Origin: Sporomusa sp. KB1 | Lineage (GTDB): Bacteria > Bacillota > Negativicutes > Sporomusales > Sporomusaceae | Length of the DNA: 64,000 nt | Reading direction: 5' to 3' | NCBI RefSeq assembly: GCF_007830295.1 | Contig: NZ_VLKC01000002.1 | Coordinates: forward strand, 3,738,356 to 3,802,355 | Shown here: piece after piece, positions 46,183 through 52,623 of the stretch | Position numbering within the stretch: position 1 is the stretch's first letter | How the letters are laid out: the number at the start of each line of letters is the position of its first letter | Made by a program: the position numbers and the translations under genes | Notes under the pieces: model-generated | The model's database searches: none | Seen by the model: only the letters and a program-made list of their open reading frames with translations | Told to the model about the DNA's origin: nothing

Positions 46183-46896
46183 ATGGCTATTTCGTTTTTA
46201 ACGGTATTAGCAACATCGATAATCAAAGGCATCACCCTGCTTGTTTCCTACATAGCCAATAATACGTTTCCTTTACCGTTGTCAGAGAAAGACGAACGTG
46301 TCTATTTGCAACGGCTAAAAGGCGGGGATGAAGGTGCCCGTAGTGTATTAATTGAACGTAACCTGAGACTGGTAGCCCATATTGTTAAAAAATTTGATAA
46401 TACAGGTGAAGACGTTGATGATCTAATCTCCATTGGCACCATTGGTCTTATTAAGGCGATTAATACCTTCGATCCGGCCAAAAAAATTAGGCTGGCCACC
46501 TATGCTGCCCGCTGCATTGAGAACGAAATACTCATGCACCTGAGAAGCACCCGGCGCATTCGCACAGAAGTTAGTTTGTATGATCCGATTGGGGTCGACA
46601 AAGAAGGCAATGAGATAACTTTAATTGACGTATTGGGCACAGCTCCTGATATTGTGGGTGAAGCGGTAGAAAGTTTATGTGAGCAGGAAAGATTGACTCG
46701 TGAAATCCACCGTCTGACAGCCCGGGAAAAATGGGTGCTTGAAATGCGTTTTGGTTTGCCTGACGGCAGACGAAAAACCCAGCGCGATATTGCCAAAATT
46801 TTAGGGATTTCTCGCAGCTATGTTAGTAGAATAGAAAAACACGCTATTACCAAGCTAGGGAAGACACTGTCTGCAAGTGATACTACACCTAAATAG
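46183..46896 (+). CDS. sigK: Sporulation sigma factor sigma-K (intact)
   Basis: A 237-residue sigma-70 family factor of the SigK/SigE branch. There is a short hydrophobic pro-sequence-like N-terminus (about 25 residues), region 2 with RNLRLVAHIVKKFDN and IGLIKAINTFDP, a -10-binding helix (YAARCIENEILMHLR) and region 4 ([21 protein letters not shown]). It directs late mother-cell transcription. The gene is uninterrupted, unlike the skin-split sigK of Bacillus subtilis. However, its 3' end from 46625 onwards is duplicated at 52136, bracketing a 5.1-kb insertion. GGGGGTGA lies about 10 bases before ATG 46183. Confidence 0.95.
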   Translation: MAISFLTVLATSIIKGITLLVSYIANNTFPLPLSEKDERVYLQRLKGGDEGARSVLIERNLRLVAHIVKKFDNTGEDVDDLISIGTIGLIKAINTFDPAKKIRLATYAARCIENEILMHLRSTRRIRTEVSLYDPIGVDKEGNEITLIDVLGTAPDIVGEAVESLCEQERLTREIHRLTAREKWVLEMRFGLPDGRRKTQRDIAKILGISRSYVSRIEKHAITKLGKTLSASDTTPK

Positions 46897-47015
46897 AGCT
46901 GTAGGCTAATGCGGTATAAAAAACAGAAAAAGAGGCGGCTAGTCTGCTGCCTCATCTTTTAAAAACTCTTCCAACGCTTCTCTGTGTTTATGCTCATTGG
47001 TCATAGCTTCAGAAA
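46625..47015. repeat. Direct repeat B1 (sigK 3' end plus truncated small gene)
   Basis: This 391-bp block matches 52136-52526 with about ten substitutions and two compensating single-base indels. It spans sigK region 4, the stop, the intergenic stretch and, on the minus strand, the last 25 or so codons of the gene that is complete at 52450-52623. At 47016 the match ends and unrelated sequence begins. Confidence 0.95.
46943..47015 (-). pseudogene. 3' fragment of the 57-aa gene (see 52450-52623)
   Basis: On the minus strand the frame ...SEAMTNEHKHREALEEF... with its stop is present, but the first 33 codons and the ribosome binding site are missing. The truncation coincides with the end of direct repeat B1. 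Confidence 0.85.
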
Positions 47016-47399
47016 TTACTTTTCTATAACCTTAGCCGAACTATGACAAGACTATGTTCGGAAGAAATTTTAAGAAAATTAATAAAAAAGGAGAACTTGC
47101 TATATCAAAAAGACAAGTTCTCTTTTTTTGTATATGGATCGCACAATGGGACTGAAATAACTTGTAGTGTGAATTAAGGGTATCGTTTTCACACGGTCTG
47201 CCGTTCTCTTGACACCTATTTTAGTTACACCAGTGCATATTCTATATTTAGCAATAGAAAAAATTAGCGAATTTTACAGGAATATAGATTAATTTGGAGA
47301 ATGGATAATCTGGCATGATTTTACGGTCATTTACCTGCTGTTTAGATATATAATATATTGTTTCTGAAGGATTTTCCTAAACTAAAAAAATATCATAAA
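47016..47399. other. Intergenic stretch at the left end of the sigK insertion
   Basis: The only clear element is a terminator-like hairpin GAGAACTTG/CAAGTTCTC (47091-47122) followed by seven T on the plus strand. The rest is AT-rich without supported frames, except that it lies downstream of the minus-strand HTH gene. Confidence 0.6.
47091..47129 (+). terminator. Rho-independent terminator without an upstream gene
   Basis: A 9-bp stem GAGAACTTG/CAAGTTCTC with a 14-base loop is followed by TTTTTTT. It stands 195 bases past the sigK stop and just inside the insertion, so it may have belonged to a gene lost at the junction. Confidence 0.75.
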
Positions 47400-47837
47400 C
47401 TATTTTCTGTGATCTGATAAGGTGCCAAGATCGAGGGAACTCAAAATTTCATTCGCTTGCGTAATAGACTTCCCAGTTTCAAGGGAGTGGATAATAATGG
47501 CATCGCGTTTGTTTTTGGGATATAGTGCGCCTACCTCGGCAAATTTGAGCAGTCTAGCAGTTTCCTCGTTATTCAGCCCGAAGCCAAATGCTAAAGACAA
47601 TGTTTGATTTCTGCCCGGTTTCGTTTTGATTCCACTGAAAAGTTGGTTTATGTAGTTGCTGTCAAGATTGGCACTTTTGATTACATCCTGCCTTTTTAAT
47701 CCTTTTAATGACAATAATTTTTCTAAATATTCCCGTAATGTAGGATCGGTAATAGATGATTCGTTTTCTTGCAGAAAGATTTTGAGGTCCTTCGCGTTTT
47801 TCAGGATTTTTATTAATGCACCGGTGGATATTTCCAT
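47400..47837 (-). CDS. Helix-turn-helix regulator paired with the Ser/Thr kinase
   Basis: A 145-residue XRE-like DNA-binding protein beginning MEISTGALIKILKN. A helix-turn-helix spans roughly residues 48-75 (LKRQDVIKSANLDSNYINQL), and the following helical domain contains TLSLAFGFGLNNEETARLL and ALYPKNKRDAIIIHSLE. The frame could start 18 codons earlier, but GGGGGTC precedes the ATG at 47837. It is divergent from the kinase gene (48-base gap). I recall similar HTH-kinase pairs in Clostridia and Paenibacillus. The regulator is a plausible kinase substrate or controller of the pair. Confidence 0.8.
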   Translation of the reverse strand: MEISTGALIKILKNAKDLKIFLQENESSITDPTLREYLEKLLSLKGLKRQDVIKSANLDSNYINQLFSGIKTKPGRNQTLSLAFGFGLNNEETARLLKFAEVGALYPKNKRDAIIIHSLETGKSITQANEILSSLDLGTLSDHRK

Positions 47838-47885
47838 TCTGCGACCCCCAATATTTTTCTCTATTGTAATATTGAGGTGTTTGGA

Positions 47886-48950
47886 ATGCAATACTTTGCT
47901 GAAGATTTTGACCCGCAGGAATATGATAGCCTGACTGATTTAAGCGGGAATGAAAATGTAACCCTTATGTGCCATAACGAAACGAAAAAACTGATTGTTC
48001 GAAAAATAATCAGCGGAATAAATAAGGAATTGTATAAGCAGTTGGTTCACGTAAGACATAAAAACTTGGTTCAGGTCATGGGTCTGGAAGAAACCACATC
48101 TAATTGCTATACCTATGAAGAATACATCAACGGCGAAACGTTAGCGGAGATTCTTGCCAAGGGGCCGATACAGGAGGAAAAAGCGGTACATTGGATCAGA
48201 CAGTTATGCGAAGCGGTAAGGCTGCTCCATGAGCAGAGTCCAAGTATCATTCACAGGGACATTAAACCGGACAATATCATGCTTTCGTCTGATGGCGTTA
48301 TAAAACTCATTGATTTTGATGCCTCGAAAGAGTTTACGCCTAACAAACAAAGAGATACGCAGCTTGTTGGAACGCCCAATTATGCCGCTCCTGAACAATA
48401 TGGTTTTGCGTCGTCAGACCCCCGAACTGATGTATACGCCATGGGTATCCTTTTTCATGAACTTATCACCGGCTATAAACCTAATGAAATCAACTTCTCT
48501 TACAAAGGGCGATATGGAAAAATAATACAAAAATGTATTGAACTCGACCCGAAAAAGCGGTATCAGAGTGTACAGGAGTTAGAACGTCAGCTTGGAGTGC
48601 ACGAGGTAACAGGGTTAATAGAGCACATACCAGGATTTCGTACAGGAACATGGTGGAAAAAGGAAATAGCGTTAGGTGCCTATATAATCATCGCTGTATT
48701 TATGACTGCCTCTGTTTGCTCAGAGTGGAATTTACATGGAAATATAGTGAAGTCACTTGCTGTGCTTGGGTGCTGGGTCATCTTATTTGTTCCTCCCTAC
48801 ATACTGATTACAAACTTCCTGCGGCTTCGGGAAAAACTGCCGTTACTAAGGTCAAAGTTTATCATAGTAAAAGTCTTTGGTGCTGTTCTTTATCTTCTAT
48901 TATGGTTATTGCTGTTTTCTAGTACAACATCTATTGAACGGCGTCTCTAA
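47886..48950 (+). CDS. Membrane-anchored eukaryotic-type Ser/Thr protein kinase
   Basis: A 354-residue protein. The kinase domain covers about residues 15-240, with catalytic Lys near residue 40 (LIVRKI), HRDIKPDN at 123-130, DFD instead of DFG at 143-145, and GTPNYAAPEQYG in the activation segment. The glycine loop is poorly conserved. Three hydrophobic segments follow at the C-terminus (about 258-345), so the kinase faces the cytoplasm. There are no PASTA repeats, unlike the housekeeping PrkC. GTG 47877 is possible; ATG 47886, 6 bases after GAGGTG, is preferred. It is cargo of the sigK insertion. Confidence 0.9.
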   Translation: MQYFAEDFDPQEYDSLTDLSGNENVTLMCHNETKKLIVRKIISGINKELYKQLVHVRHKNLVQVMGLEETTSNCYTYEEYINGETLAEILAKGPIQEEKAVHWIRQLCEAVRLLHEQSPSIIHRDIKPDNIMLSSDGVIKLIDFDASKEFTPNKQRDTQLVGTPNYAAPEQYGFASSDPRTDVYAMGILFHELITGYKPNEINFSYKGRYGKIIQKCIELDPKKRYQSVQELERQLGVHEVTGLIEHIPGFRTGTWWKKEIALGAYIIIAVFMTASVCSEWNLHGNIVKSLAVLGCWVILFVPPYILITNFLRLREKLPLLRSKFIIVKVFGAVLYLLLWLLLFSSTTSIERRL

Positions 48951-49260
48951 CGGCGCAAAGCAAAGACAGTGCTACCAGCACTGTCTTTGAGAATCGCTTT
49001 ATGCTTAAATATATAGGTAAGATATATATTTAGCAATCAAGGTTGTTTACAAAACAAAACCCTGTAAAACCTTGGTTTTGCCGGATTAGTTGCTATAAAA
49101 AACTTCAAACTCACGTTATTTACTCAATTTTCGCAGGCCCGATTAGGCAGGTAATCCTTATTTTTTCTGTTGGCAATCTTACATGCCTTAACGTCTTAGT
49201 TCAAATTTTTCCCTGGGAAAATTGAGTTGTTTAAAATAATAAAATAGAGAGGGGTACATT
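48951..49260. other. Intergenic stretch between kinase and TPR genes
   Basis: It contains a perfect hairpin AAAGACAGTGCT/AGCACTGTCTTT (48962-48988) directly after the kinase, probably its terminator although the T-run is weak. The remaining 270 bases are AT-rich with no supported frame. Confidence 0.6.
48962..48988 (+). terminator. Hairpin after the kinase gene
   Basis: A 12-bp perfect stem with a three-base loop (ACC) lies 12 bases past the stop. It lacks a good T tract, so it may be a processing or stability hairpin. Confidence 0.55.
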
Positions 49261-50352
49261 ATGAGTCATTTTTTTGCTATAATTGCGTTTTTGGCGTTTT
49301 TGGCTGGAGTAATATACTTTGGAAGGTGGTTATTTGCTTTATTTAAAAAAAATCCTAAAAAACCGTGGGCAATAAAAATGGGTATATGTTGTGTAACATT
49401 TTTTGTAGCGATGTCAGCATCGATGATGCTGGGGCAAGCTGAATGGGATAAACTGTCCCCCGAAGAAAAGGCAGCTAGACTAGAACAAAAGAGAGTAGAT
49501 GAGTTGGCTAAACAAGAAAAGCAAAAAAACCAAGAAGCCACTAAAGAAGAAAAGAGAAAAACGGAATCTGAGGCCTATTTTGATAGAGGCAAAATGTTCT
49601 TTGATAGAAAAGAATGGAATGCTACCATTCGGGAATTAACAGAGGCTATAAAGCTCGACCCCAATTACACCGAAGCCTATCTTTACCGTTCCAGAGCTAA
49701 CAATGGCAAAGGCGATTATGATCAGGCACTTGCCGATGCGAACCATGCACTTCAGCTTAATCCAAAACTTGGAATTGCTTATCGTACCCGTGGTGTTGCA
49801 TATGCTGGCAAAGGCGACTATGACCGATCTATCGCGGATTCTACCGAGGCTATAAGGCTGAATCCCAATGATGATGGTGCGTATGTTAACCGCGCTAGTG
49901 ACTATCGTCGCAAGGGCGACTATGATCGCGCCATTGCGGATGTTAACGAGGTGATAAGGCTGAAACCCAGTGATGGTGAGTCATACGCAATGCGTAGCGC
50001 TTTGTATGCTGACAAGGGCGACCATGACCGCGCCATCGCGGATTCCACTGAGGCTATTACAAGGCTGAATCCAAATGATGCTACTAAGGTTGCTCTTATG
50101 TATTCCATACGTGCCCTTGCATATCATCGTAAGCGCGATTACAACCAGGCAATAGCGGATTATGATCAAGCAATCAAACTGACGCCCAATGATGCTACTA
50201 TGTATTGTGGCCGTGGTGGTGCGTATGCTGCCAATCGCGATTACAACCGAGCAATCACGGATTTTGAAGCGGCGCTACGGATCGATCCGAACCATGCGCT
50301 CGCCAAGCAGAGTCTTGAGAGAGCGAGGCAACTCAAGATGTTATTGGGGTAA
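49261..50352 (+). CDS. Membrane-anchored TPR repeat protein
   Basis: A 363-residue protein. Two N-terminal transmembrane helices (about 5-25 and 40-58) are followed by a charged Lys/Glu coiled-coil-like linker (75-105). About seven tetratricopeptide repeats of 34 residues follow, with the recurring pattern AY..RG.AY..KGDYDRAIAD...AIRLNPN. The repeats are closely similar to each other (e.g. KGDYDRSIADSTEAIRLNP), suggesting recent internal expansion. TPR arrays bind partner proteins. The location in the sigK insertion, next to a kinase and exported proteins, suggests a scaffold (inference). GAGAGGGG precedes ATG 49261. Confidence 0.88.
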   Translation: MSHFFAIIAFLAFLAGVIYFGRWLFALFKKNPKKPWAIKMGICCVTFFVAMSASMMLGQAEWDKLSPEEKAARLEQKRVDELAKQEKQKNQEATKEEKRKTESEAYFDRGKMFFDRKEWNATIRELTEAIKLDPNYTEAYLYRSRANNGKGDYDQALADANHALQLNPKLGIAYRTRGVAYAGKGDYDRSIADSTEAIRLNPNDDGAYVNRASDYRRKGDYDRAIADVNEVIRLKPSDGESYAMRSALYADKGDHDRAIADSTEAITRLNPNDATKVALMYSIRALAYHRKRDYNQAIADYDQAIKLTPNDATMYCGRGGAYAANRDYNRAITDFEAALRIDPNHALAKQSLERARQLKMLLG

Positions 50353-50558
50353 ATGGTGAAATACAATTGTTAGCTGCTATTTCATGTATCAGTTAACTGC
50401 CGTAATTTGTATATACCTGCATCAATGTCGATGATAAATACCAGTTCGGTTAAGCCTTTTTTCATGAAGAATTTGTTAATCTTCAATAAAACCATCGCAA
50501 AGGAAGATAGTAAATTAGGTCAAGTGGCAGAACGGCCTTTAACTGCTGGAGATTAGTT

Positions 50559-51026
50559 ATGAGAAAAATAGTATCTACCTTTGTGGGAGTAATCATGATG
50601 ATGTTAGCTTCCGCAGCATTTGCCTATCCAGCGCATTTGAATGGAGATTCAAATTACATCTTGTGCGATGGAAATAAGGGAACGGGGTATTATGTTGATC
50701 GTAGTTCTTTGAACGTGAAACAATATACGCCGCCGATTTATATTATTGCTGTTAACATCGTAAGAGTGCCTGATGCTGATATGGGAAAGACTAAAATATC
50801 AGATGTGAAAACCCATTATTTCCTATATAAATATAATGTTCGAGAAATGTATGTTCCTGCTGAAGGAGATTCAGATTATGATTGGCGCCTCCTGAAACCA
50901 CGAGGAAGTTATGCAGAGACAGGAATTTCCATGCCAGCTGGCGAAATAGCCTTTTACTTGGCGTATAATTTACGTTTCTATGGTGAAAAAGCCGGTTATG
51001 GTGATTCATTTTATGACAAAATCTAA
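50559..51026 (+). CDS. Exported hypothetical protein (155 aa)
   Basis: A signal peptide spans residues 1-22 (MRKIVSTFVGVIMMMLASAA, cleavage near AFA-Y). The mature ~130-residue domain is rich in Tyr and beta-type sequence (YYVDRSSLNVKQYTPP, YFLYKYNVREMYV). There are no cysteine pairs beyond one Cys and no anchors. I do not recognise a family; it is reminiscent of small surface proteins of Negativicutes. GGAG precedes ATG 50559. It is part of the sigK insertion cargo. Confidence 0.7.
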   Translation: MRKIVSTFVGVIMMMLASAAFAYPAHLNGDSNYILCDGNKGTGYYVDRSSLNVKQYTPPIYIIAVNIVRVPDADMGKTKISDVKTHYFLYKYNVREMYVPAEGDSDYDWRLLKPRGSYAETGISMPAGEIAFYLAYNLRFYGEKAGYGDSFYDKI

Positions 51027-51041
51027 ATCTAGGGAAACGAG

Positions 51042-51065
51042 GTGACGGTGGTGTGCCACCGTCAC
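51042..51065 (+). terminator. GC-rich hairpin after the exported protein gene
   Basis: A perfect 10-bp stem GTGACGGTGG/CCACCGTCAC with a four-base loop lies 15 bases after the stop. It has no T-run, so termination is uncertain. Confidence 0.5.
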
Positions 51066-51304
51066 TCTGTCTATATCCTGGGAGGCGATTTTATTGCAGT
51101 AAAAGATAACAAGGTTTCTTAATTGACTCCCGGGGGAATATTCTGTCGCCTGTATCGTTTGAGGATACATTGCAGTTTTGGGGAGGGATTCCGGGTAAAA
51201 ACTGATTTGGCTACTAGTGTTTTCATTGTCGGCTTTAGGAAAATATTCCCAATTATAAATAGGAAAAATATCCATAAAGAATATACACAAGGAAGGGATG
51301 CCTT

Positions 51305-51949
51305 ATGAGTAAAAAAATGATAATTCTATTTATTATTTTGCTTTTTAGCAGTTCTGCCTCATGCTTTGCGATCACCTTATCACAGCCGGTAGAAATTGGC
51401 AGTGTATATACTAAAGACCTTGTGCGTTATGGTTCGCAATCTGCTTTGCCCACATCGCTAAAAGATAAATATTATGATTTTGGCAAAGACAAGGTTGTTC
51501 GTTTGTATGTAAATTTTTATGGTCAAGACAGATTTGGTGACACTAAGAATATAAATAATACCGTTTCTCTTAGGGAGGGTCGTCATAGGAGTGCTTTTTA
51601 TGAAATTTTTGAAATAGCAGGCAATAAAGGCGAGGTATTCTATGTTATAGGATGCGGAGGAACAGATGGATATTCAGACTTTGCTATTATAGGTAAAACG
51701 TCTGACGGAAAATACATAACTTATGTAAGCAGAAATCATTTTGAAAATCTTCATCCTACTATCAAAGATTCTGTTACGGGACCAACTGTTGGCGCAAAAA
51801 TTGCTGTAGAAGATGATACTATAGTGTTAAATTGCGGACGTAAAGGTATGGTGCCGCCTCTTGTGCCTACATTCTGGCAATACCGATTAAAATGGGATGA
51901 TAAGGCTCAATGGTTTGGAATTGAATACATACCCCTTCGGAATGAATGA
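51305..51949 (+). CDS. Exported hypothetical protein (214 aa)
   Basis: A signal peptide spans residues 1-22 (MSKKMIILFIILLFSSSASC); the cysteine at residue 20 makes a lipoprotein possible, but the lipobox is poor. The mature domain is beta-rich, with GCGGTDGYSDFAIIGKTSDG and ENLHPTIKDSVTGPTVGAK. The family is not recognised. GGAAGGGATG lies before ATG 51305. It is cargo of the sigK insertion. Confidence 0.7.
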   Translation: MSKKMIILFIILLFSSSASCFAITLSQPVEIGSVYTKDLVRYGSQSALPTSLKDKYYDFGKDKVVRLYVNFYGQDRFGDTKNINNTVSLREGRHRSAFYEIFEIAGNKGEVFYVIGCGGTDGYSDFAIIGKTSDGKYITYVSRNHFENLHPTIKDSVTGPTVGAKIAVEDDTIVLNCGRKGMVPPLVPTFWQYRLKWDDKAQWFGIEYIPLRNE

Positions 51950-52135
51950 TACATAACAGTAAAATAATGAAAAAGGAAGGGAAGTTTGATGGAGCGAACT
52001 TGCCGTATTCGAGAGTTAATCCTAGGTAAGTATGGTAACAATCGTAATGGTTGGAATACTTAGCATCGTATTTGCAGAAAGAACATATATGCTATGAGCT
52101 TTCTGAGCCTAAGCTTCTTGGAGCTGTTATGAGTG

Positions 52136-52406
52136 TTGACGTATGGGGCACAGCTCCTGATATTGTGGGTGAAGCGGTAGAAGGTCTATGTGAGCAGGAA
52201 AGATTGACCCGTGAAATCCACCGTCTGACAGCCCGGGAAAATGGGTGCTTGAAATGCGTTTTGGTTTGCCTGACGGCAGACGAAAAACCCAGCGTGATAT
52301 TGCCAAAATTTTAGGAATTTCTCGCAGCTATGTTAGTAGAATAGAAAAACACGCTATTACCAAGCTAGGGAAGACATTGTCTGCAAGTGATACTACACCT
52401 AAATAG
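52136..52406 (+). pseudogene. sigK 3' fragment, frameshifted
   Basis: This repeats the last 90 codons of sigK (46625 onwards) at about 97% identity. A one-base deletion in the run GGGAAAATGGG (five A in the intact gene) shifts the frame, and the reading frame that enters from 52051 stops at 52314. The upstream 85 bases (from ATG 52051) are unrelated to sigK and join it in the correct phase. Not functional. Confidence 0.93.
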
Positions 52407-52526
52407 AGCTGTAGGTTAATGCGGTATAAAAAAACAGAAAAAGGGGCGGCTAGTCTGCCGCCTCATCTTTTAAAAACTCTTCCAACGCTTCTCTGTGTTT
52501 ATGCTCATTGGTCATAGCTTCAGAAA
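52136..52526. repeat. Direct repeat B2 (right boundary of the sigK insertion)
   Basis: This is the second copy of the 391-bp repeat. It starts at TTGACGTAT within sigK and ends at CAGAAA inside the 57-aa gene, after which that gene continues intact. Confidence 0.95.
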
Positions 52527-52623
52527 CAATGGATTTATTGATTTCCTTGCGCGATAACCCGTTGTCGCCAGCACTCATGGCATATTCACTTGCAAATGAT
52601 TCCATTTGAGATTTTTTACGCAT
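52450..52623 (-). CDS. 57-aa small acidic protein downstream of sigK
   Basis: On the minus strand AGGAGGTG precedes ATG 52623, which opens a 57-codon frame (MRKKSQMESFASEYAM...) ending LKDEAAD. It is hydrophilic, helical and without cysteines. Its 3' half is duplicated in repeat B1, showing that before the insertion it was the convergent neighbour of sigK. No family is recognised. The ribosome binding site is excellent and the frame is kept in copy B2. Confidence 0.75.
   Translation of the reverse strand: MRKKSQMESFASEYAMSAGDNGLSRKEINKSIVSEAMTNEHKHREALEEFLKDEAAD

Follow-up and report, generated by a model that had tools for sequence, protein, structure and literature searches.

Sporomusa sp. 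KB1 carries, directly downstream of an intact sigK gene, a block of accessory genes bracketed by two diverged copies of the sigK end and its border. We assign a probability of about 0.58 to the reading that this is an old, fixed Campbell-like insertion and not a developmental switch. The feature is real and old, and probably inert. It lies in a window of 64,000 nucleotides (the whole stretch of DNA analyzed), in which the following features are relevant.

46183 to 46896, plus strand: intact sigK, 237 aa.
46522 to 46523, no strand: site A, position of the 25-kb skin-type insertion in sigK of congener G007.
46609 to 46613, plus strand: site B, core AATGA, split point of sigK in congeners G002, G003, G004 and G006.
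46625 to 47015, plus strand: left repeat, comprising the sigK 3' end (to 46896) and 119 bp downstream.
46939 to 47015, minus strand: decaying remnant (3' part) of the 57-aa gene, cut at 47015.
47400 to 47891, minus strand: 163-aa ORF, HTH-like by eye, 77% amino acid identity to an ORF on contig C26 of G004.
47877 to 48950, plus strand: Ser/Thr protein kinase (Pfam), 357 aa.
49261 to 50352, plus strand: TPR protein (Pfam), 363 aa.
50559 to 51026, plus strand: exported-looking 155-aa ORF, 77% amino acid identity to an ORF on contig C26 of G004.
51305 to 51949, plus strand: exported-looking 214-aa ORF with no family match.
About 51989 to 52135, plus strand: small frameshifted ORF that runs directly into the right repeat and is cut by it.
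52136 to 52526, plus strand: right repeat, comprising a frameshifted sigK 3' fragment (to 52406) and downstream sequence.
52450 to 52623, minus strand: complete 57-aa gene, present also in G007 and G008.

The direct repeats of 391 bases each are 97% identical by local alignment, lie 5,511 bp apart from start to start, and differ at 12 points (10 substitutions and two 1-base indels). A search of the entire genome (6.06 Mb in two contigs) returned two copies only, the ones in the window that the sequence-only reading had first described. Because the copies have diverged and their flanks are distinct, chance is excluded and an assembly artifact, a concern raised in that reading, is unlikely. The complementary truncations it had reported were likewise borne out: complete sigK stands with a cut 57-aa gene on the left, and a frameshifted sigK end with the whole 57-aa gene on the right. 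The left sigK is an open frame scoring 351.2 bits against a cut-off of 298.65 for the NCBIfam SigK equivalog, and the right sigK end is frameshifted by the loss of one base opposite 46727 and carries two missense changes, L151W and S164G. The repeat reaches 119 bp beyond the sigK stop codon, unlike the att-type copies of most other genomes described below. Elsewhere in the window, direct repeats of 106 to 116 bp (74-97% identical) occur between 24292 and 29060.

The decay of the two copies is polarized. With two outgroups, G008 and G007, and few changes to score, seven of the eight differences inside sigK proved derived on the right copy, one on the left; downstream of sigK, three of four are derived on the left copy, none on the right, and one is ambiguous (Fisher p = 0.024 for the contrast, leaving out the ambiguous change). 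This opposite polarity indicates that each half has been maintained in one copy and is decaying in the other. A tree built from 14 sigK 3' ends places both window copies in one group, apart from those of G007 and G008 (support 0.885), which argues that the duplication is confined to this lineage and arose after its split from G007 and G008.

Comparison of the sigK locus among relatives, which the earlier reading had proposed, revealed an empty site at which the border is single-copy. In G008, whose sigK region is about 95% identical, a gene for a 237-aa SigK is followed by some 90 extra bp and the 57-aa gene once, and the cargo is absent; in none of the eight other genus genomes searched does the cargo lie at sigK. 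The segment 52436 to 54088 (57-aa, 81-aa and AbrB-like genes) is present in G007 and G008 and has no DNA match in the loci fetched from G002, G003 and G004, in which the 54088 region comes directly after sigK.

Direct repeats at both ends, truncation of the upstream gene at one end and of the downstream gene at the other, and an empty site in a relative are all shared with Campbell-type integration, and the geometry claimed at the outset therefore stands; the difference is that the circle has not been seen here. To arrive at the repeat, the polarity of decay and the empty site that we observe, a unit of about 5.5 kb (391 bp of sigK 3' end and downstream neighbor plus 5.1 kb of accessory genes) would have entered the border between sigK and the 57-aa gene, and we infer that it did so as a circle by a single homologous crossover. 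One homologous plus one illegitimate join would give an identical product. The upstream half kept a full 3' end, so that sigK would be expressed from the left copy and the 57-aa gene from the right, and the remaining halves of both would be drifting relics. Looping-out between the repeats would remove 5,511 bp, as had been anticipated, but the further claim that it leaves sigK intact would hold only for a crossover 3' of the frameshift at 46727. Three points weigh against a Campbell-like origin: only 12 bp separate the right boundary from a skin core used in relatives, a coincidence that we estimate at about 1 in 20 for a random join; searches for a circle, or for plasmid or viral relatives of the cargo, found none, the viral scan having used two cargo proteins; and the polarity test draws on few changes and two outgroups.

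The composition of the cargo was in part as predicted. The kinase and the TPR protein were recovered by Pfam, but the putative HTH regulator was not confirmed by profile, with no Pfam match at 1e-3 and an NCBIfam match at the level of noise (E about 0.08); the two exported-looking ORFs had no match in Pfam or NCBIfam. For the broken ORF at 51989 to 52135, its own genome gave no relative besides itself, and a search of 27 further genomes from the order was likewise negative. Across the eight other genus genomes, the 5,120-bp cargo gave long matches only in G004 (86% over 1,318 bases and 84% over 644), on contig C26, with sigK of that genome on C73; matches in G006 and G007 were short. A TniQ gene (PF06527) lies near the G004 cluster. 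A 41-bp stretch at 50426 to 50466 is an inverted match to the start region of an ORF in the G004 cluster, VWA-type by eye, which may point to a rearrangement or a loss inside the cargo. We also considered the cargo as a plasmid or viral element, which was set aside after plasmids gave no match and viral contigs, scanned with two cargo proteins only, gave no relatives. A role in defence was likewise set aside, the PADLOC matches being generic ones to kinases.

The locus is a hot spot for skin elements in this genus. Among the eight other genomes, sigK is split in five and probably six, four times at site B and once (probably twice) elsewhere, and is intact in G005 and G008. The site-B elements measure 42 kb (G002), 4.5 kb (G003), 3.7 kb (G004) and 58 kb (G006). 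G001, an assembly that is 58% complete, contains only the sigK 5' part, ending near the equivalent of 46532, where its gene is probably split as well. A 525-aa serine recombinase adjoins attL, the left end, in the site-B elements of G003 and G004, and in the site-A element of G007 one is located at the right end. Nine site-B right junctions share the motif GATAA (eight) or TATAA (G007) exactly 12 bp before the core; this motif is absent in the window. G007 combines the 25-kb split at site A with a second 3' copy bearing a site-B arm (loci L114, 6449-11690, and L115, 5005), and a further 13 kb separates this displaced copy from the 57-aa gene. The genome of the window encodes two recombinases elsewhere (G000:C1:3917655-3917981 and 2184576-2184899, loci L138 and L137), scoring 387 and 344 bits with the profile of the sigK-site recombinases, that may interrupt other genes.

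The proposal that sigK is a site of skin insertion thus holds for the locus, but the tests do not support it for the insertion in the window. With the skin elements of B. subtilis and C. difficile the window shares sigK as the gene concerned, and site-B elements of its genus (G003, G004) share a serine recombinase; it differs in that its sigK is whole, in having no recombinase and in having no detectable att site. The sigK frame is uninterrupted, none of the six PF07508 matches in the genome falls inside the window, and Pfam detected no large serine recombinase among the five cargo ORFs. At the right junction, alignments with the attR arms of five relatives were matched by 980 to 2,499 of 3,000 shuffles. 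We examined this junction as a decayed attR, including a resemblance seen by eye at TGTTATGAG, and rejected it since the alignment was not significant for any of the five arms. A regular expression for the arm found no match in the window; it recovers six of nine known site-B arms and misses three, so a decayed arm is possible.

An active element excised during sporulation is on these grounds very improbable: sigK is the classical skin site and is split in most of the genus, but here the gene is whole before any excision, the window encodes no recombinase and no att site was found. The two-step alternative, in which the border of sigK and the 57-aa gene was duplicated in tandem first and the cargo was inserted separately between the copies, yields an identical map, and the TniQ gene near the cargo relatives suggests an independently mobile cargo. 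It would, however, need two events with coincident borders, and inspection of the sequence by eye at 47016 and 52135 noticed no transposon ends or target duplication; we regard it as unlikely.

The leading rival, which we judge possible yet clearly the less probable reading, is a fossil skin element: a site-B element once inserted at 46609 to 46613, sigK was restored in full upstream of it, and the right end of the element persisted together with the displaced 3' sigK, the att arm and core at that junction being deleted later. Similar arrangements that retain an attR-like arm and core exist in the sister species G007 (where the copies share 96.5% identity and their starts lie 4.9 kb apart), in G046, in a clostridial metagenome-assembled genome (MAG; L098) and in B. 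licheniformis. In addition, the right repeat of the window begins 12 bp past the site-B core, where a cargo ORF is cut. Against this reading, neither the shuffles nor the regular expression (with its three of nine misses) detects an arm, the window copies run 119 bp past the stop codon, and the surroundings in G007 are more complex, with the extra 13 kb between displaced copy and 57-aa gene. Given the negative recombinase and arm tests, the Campbell-like insertion remains our best reading, with the fossil element as its first rival.

Displaced sigK 3' ends are not confined to this genus. In a sample of the class, 52 of 150 genomes had a SigK-like 3' match, and besides the window second 3' copies occurred in G007, G009 and G046, and in G081 on separate contigs; the left sigK of G046 encodes 212 aa with an apparent internal deletion, and its intactness is uncertain. 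Among 80 loci chosen for good SigK matches, two had a displaced 3' copy within 10 kb (L091, Paenibacillus rubinfantis, and L098, the clostridial MAG). A phylum sample of 249 genomes gave extra sigK copies in G171, G363 and G152 among the matches listed. B. licheniformis SRCM100141 (NZ_CP021671, labeled a plasmid, yet carrying chromosomal genes) has an intact sigK followed by two displaced 3' copies (L165; 15957-16682, 26093-26391 and 32345-32649). These two copies are 94-95% identical and lie behind arms that are almost the same, and three weaker remnants occur further on.

The window may or may not belong with these copies. Those with attR-like arms (G007, G046, L098, B. licheniformis, G171, G363, G453 and G568) share with it a complete or nearly complete sigK, cargo and a displaced 3' end, but there the displaced copy begins at a core, preceded by a conserved arm, and in most cases runs only to the stop codon; neither is true of the window. 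A counterpart in layout, G009 from another genus of the family, has an intact sigK, then a partial copy of the following gene, the cargo, a degraded 3' piece of sigK and finally the complete following gene, with no arm seen; it differs in that the downstream gene encodes a HAD phosphatase, the cargo is smaller and about 490 bp more lie between the sigK piece and the HAD gene on the right. A free circle carrying a sigK 3' end was sought, and the candidate, B. altitudinis 'p1' (NZ_CP139562, 3,154 bp), was rejected as it carries a whole, frameshift-ridden sigK and a transposase. The arm patterns had no match in viral contigs, and the arm-plus-core stretch had none in plasmids or phages.

Arrays of displaced 3' ends occur in one large family, which on our reading is Paenibacillus-like: L159-L161 and L169-L171 (G171), L156-L158 (G363), L176-L182 (G453), and L183-L185 and L189-L191 (G568). 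The displaced copies of G171 and G363 share one start position in sigK, at about codon 66, with a conserved arm in front of it; most of them terminate with the stop codon. Across 28 junctions from six genomes, a single base accounts for at least 22 of the 28 in 10 of the 15 columns between -27 and -13, and no column from -60 to -28 reaches this level; the 12 bases next to the core, which defined the junctions, were left out of the count. The arm-plus-core pattern, allowing up to two mismatches, is present in 35 of 197 family genomes and occurs at least twice in 15, with up to seven occurrences (G453) and six (G568), counts that also cover the junctions of plainly split sigK genes and copies located on separate contigs; the reversed pattern was not found among the genomes listed. 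In G453, an intact sigK is followed by seven junctions. A serine recombinase lies just upstream of intact sigK in G363 and G491 and beside a displaced 3' copy in G568; G171 has 265-aa pieces only, and the stretch examined in G453 contains no recombinase. Upstream of the intact sigK, G363 and G568 additionally carry displaced 5' halves that stop near codon 69 and precede an inverted arm (L190, L191 and L199), so the complete gene there stands between fossil attL- and attR-type halves. No such 5' halves were found in about 50 kb upstream in G171 and G453. Ten array cargo proteins were mixed, including a transporter, hydrolases, transposases and an Mrr-type nuclease. An exclusively horizontal exchange of site-C units among distant lineages is not favored, as copies for the most part cluster with others of their own lineage (own-best identity 83.4-94.5%), with the exceptions that G431 intermixes with G171 and G418 with G363.

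We tentatively speculate that in spore formers sigK acts as a site of accretion that renews itself; the window would be a young-looking member of this class that has lost its right arm. Skin-type insertions would split sigK repeatedly, and each time a complete sigK would be present upstream, as in G363 and G568; the gene would thereby escape dependence on excision, leaving the site open for the next element, and displaced 3' ends with attR arms would accumulate as a fossil record with metabolic or other cargo between them. Parallels exist in other systems. Insertions of e14 in E. coli icd and of SCC elements in rlmH supply the 3' end of the host gene, so that the gene stays whole and its old end is displaced, and SCC elements form tandem arrays; both differ in involving other genes and recombinases and in having no link to sporulation. 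The recurrent sigK pattern itself is apparently undescribed. Titles and the opening lines of abstracts, in a literature from which subscription journals were largely excluded, gave no description of displaced sigK 3' copies or arrays; the works consulted were PMC13141910, PMC5025042, PMC4374763 and PMC12456013.

The window is of interest mainly as a lead to this pattern. It indicates that a skin-prone gene can acquire accessory DNA yet stay whole, and it provides a dated, testable pair of empty and filled sites; displaced sigK ends also account for some odd short SigK annotations. If the arrays are fossil skin insertions neutralized by a second sigK, they would record host escape from, or element avoidance of, developmental excision, and comparison of arrays would make it testable why some skin elements persist and others vanish.
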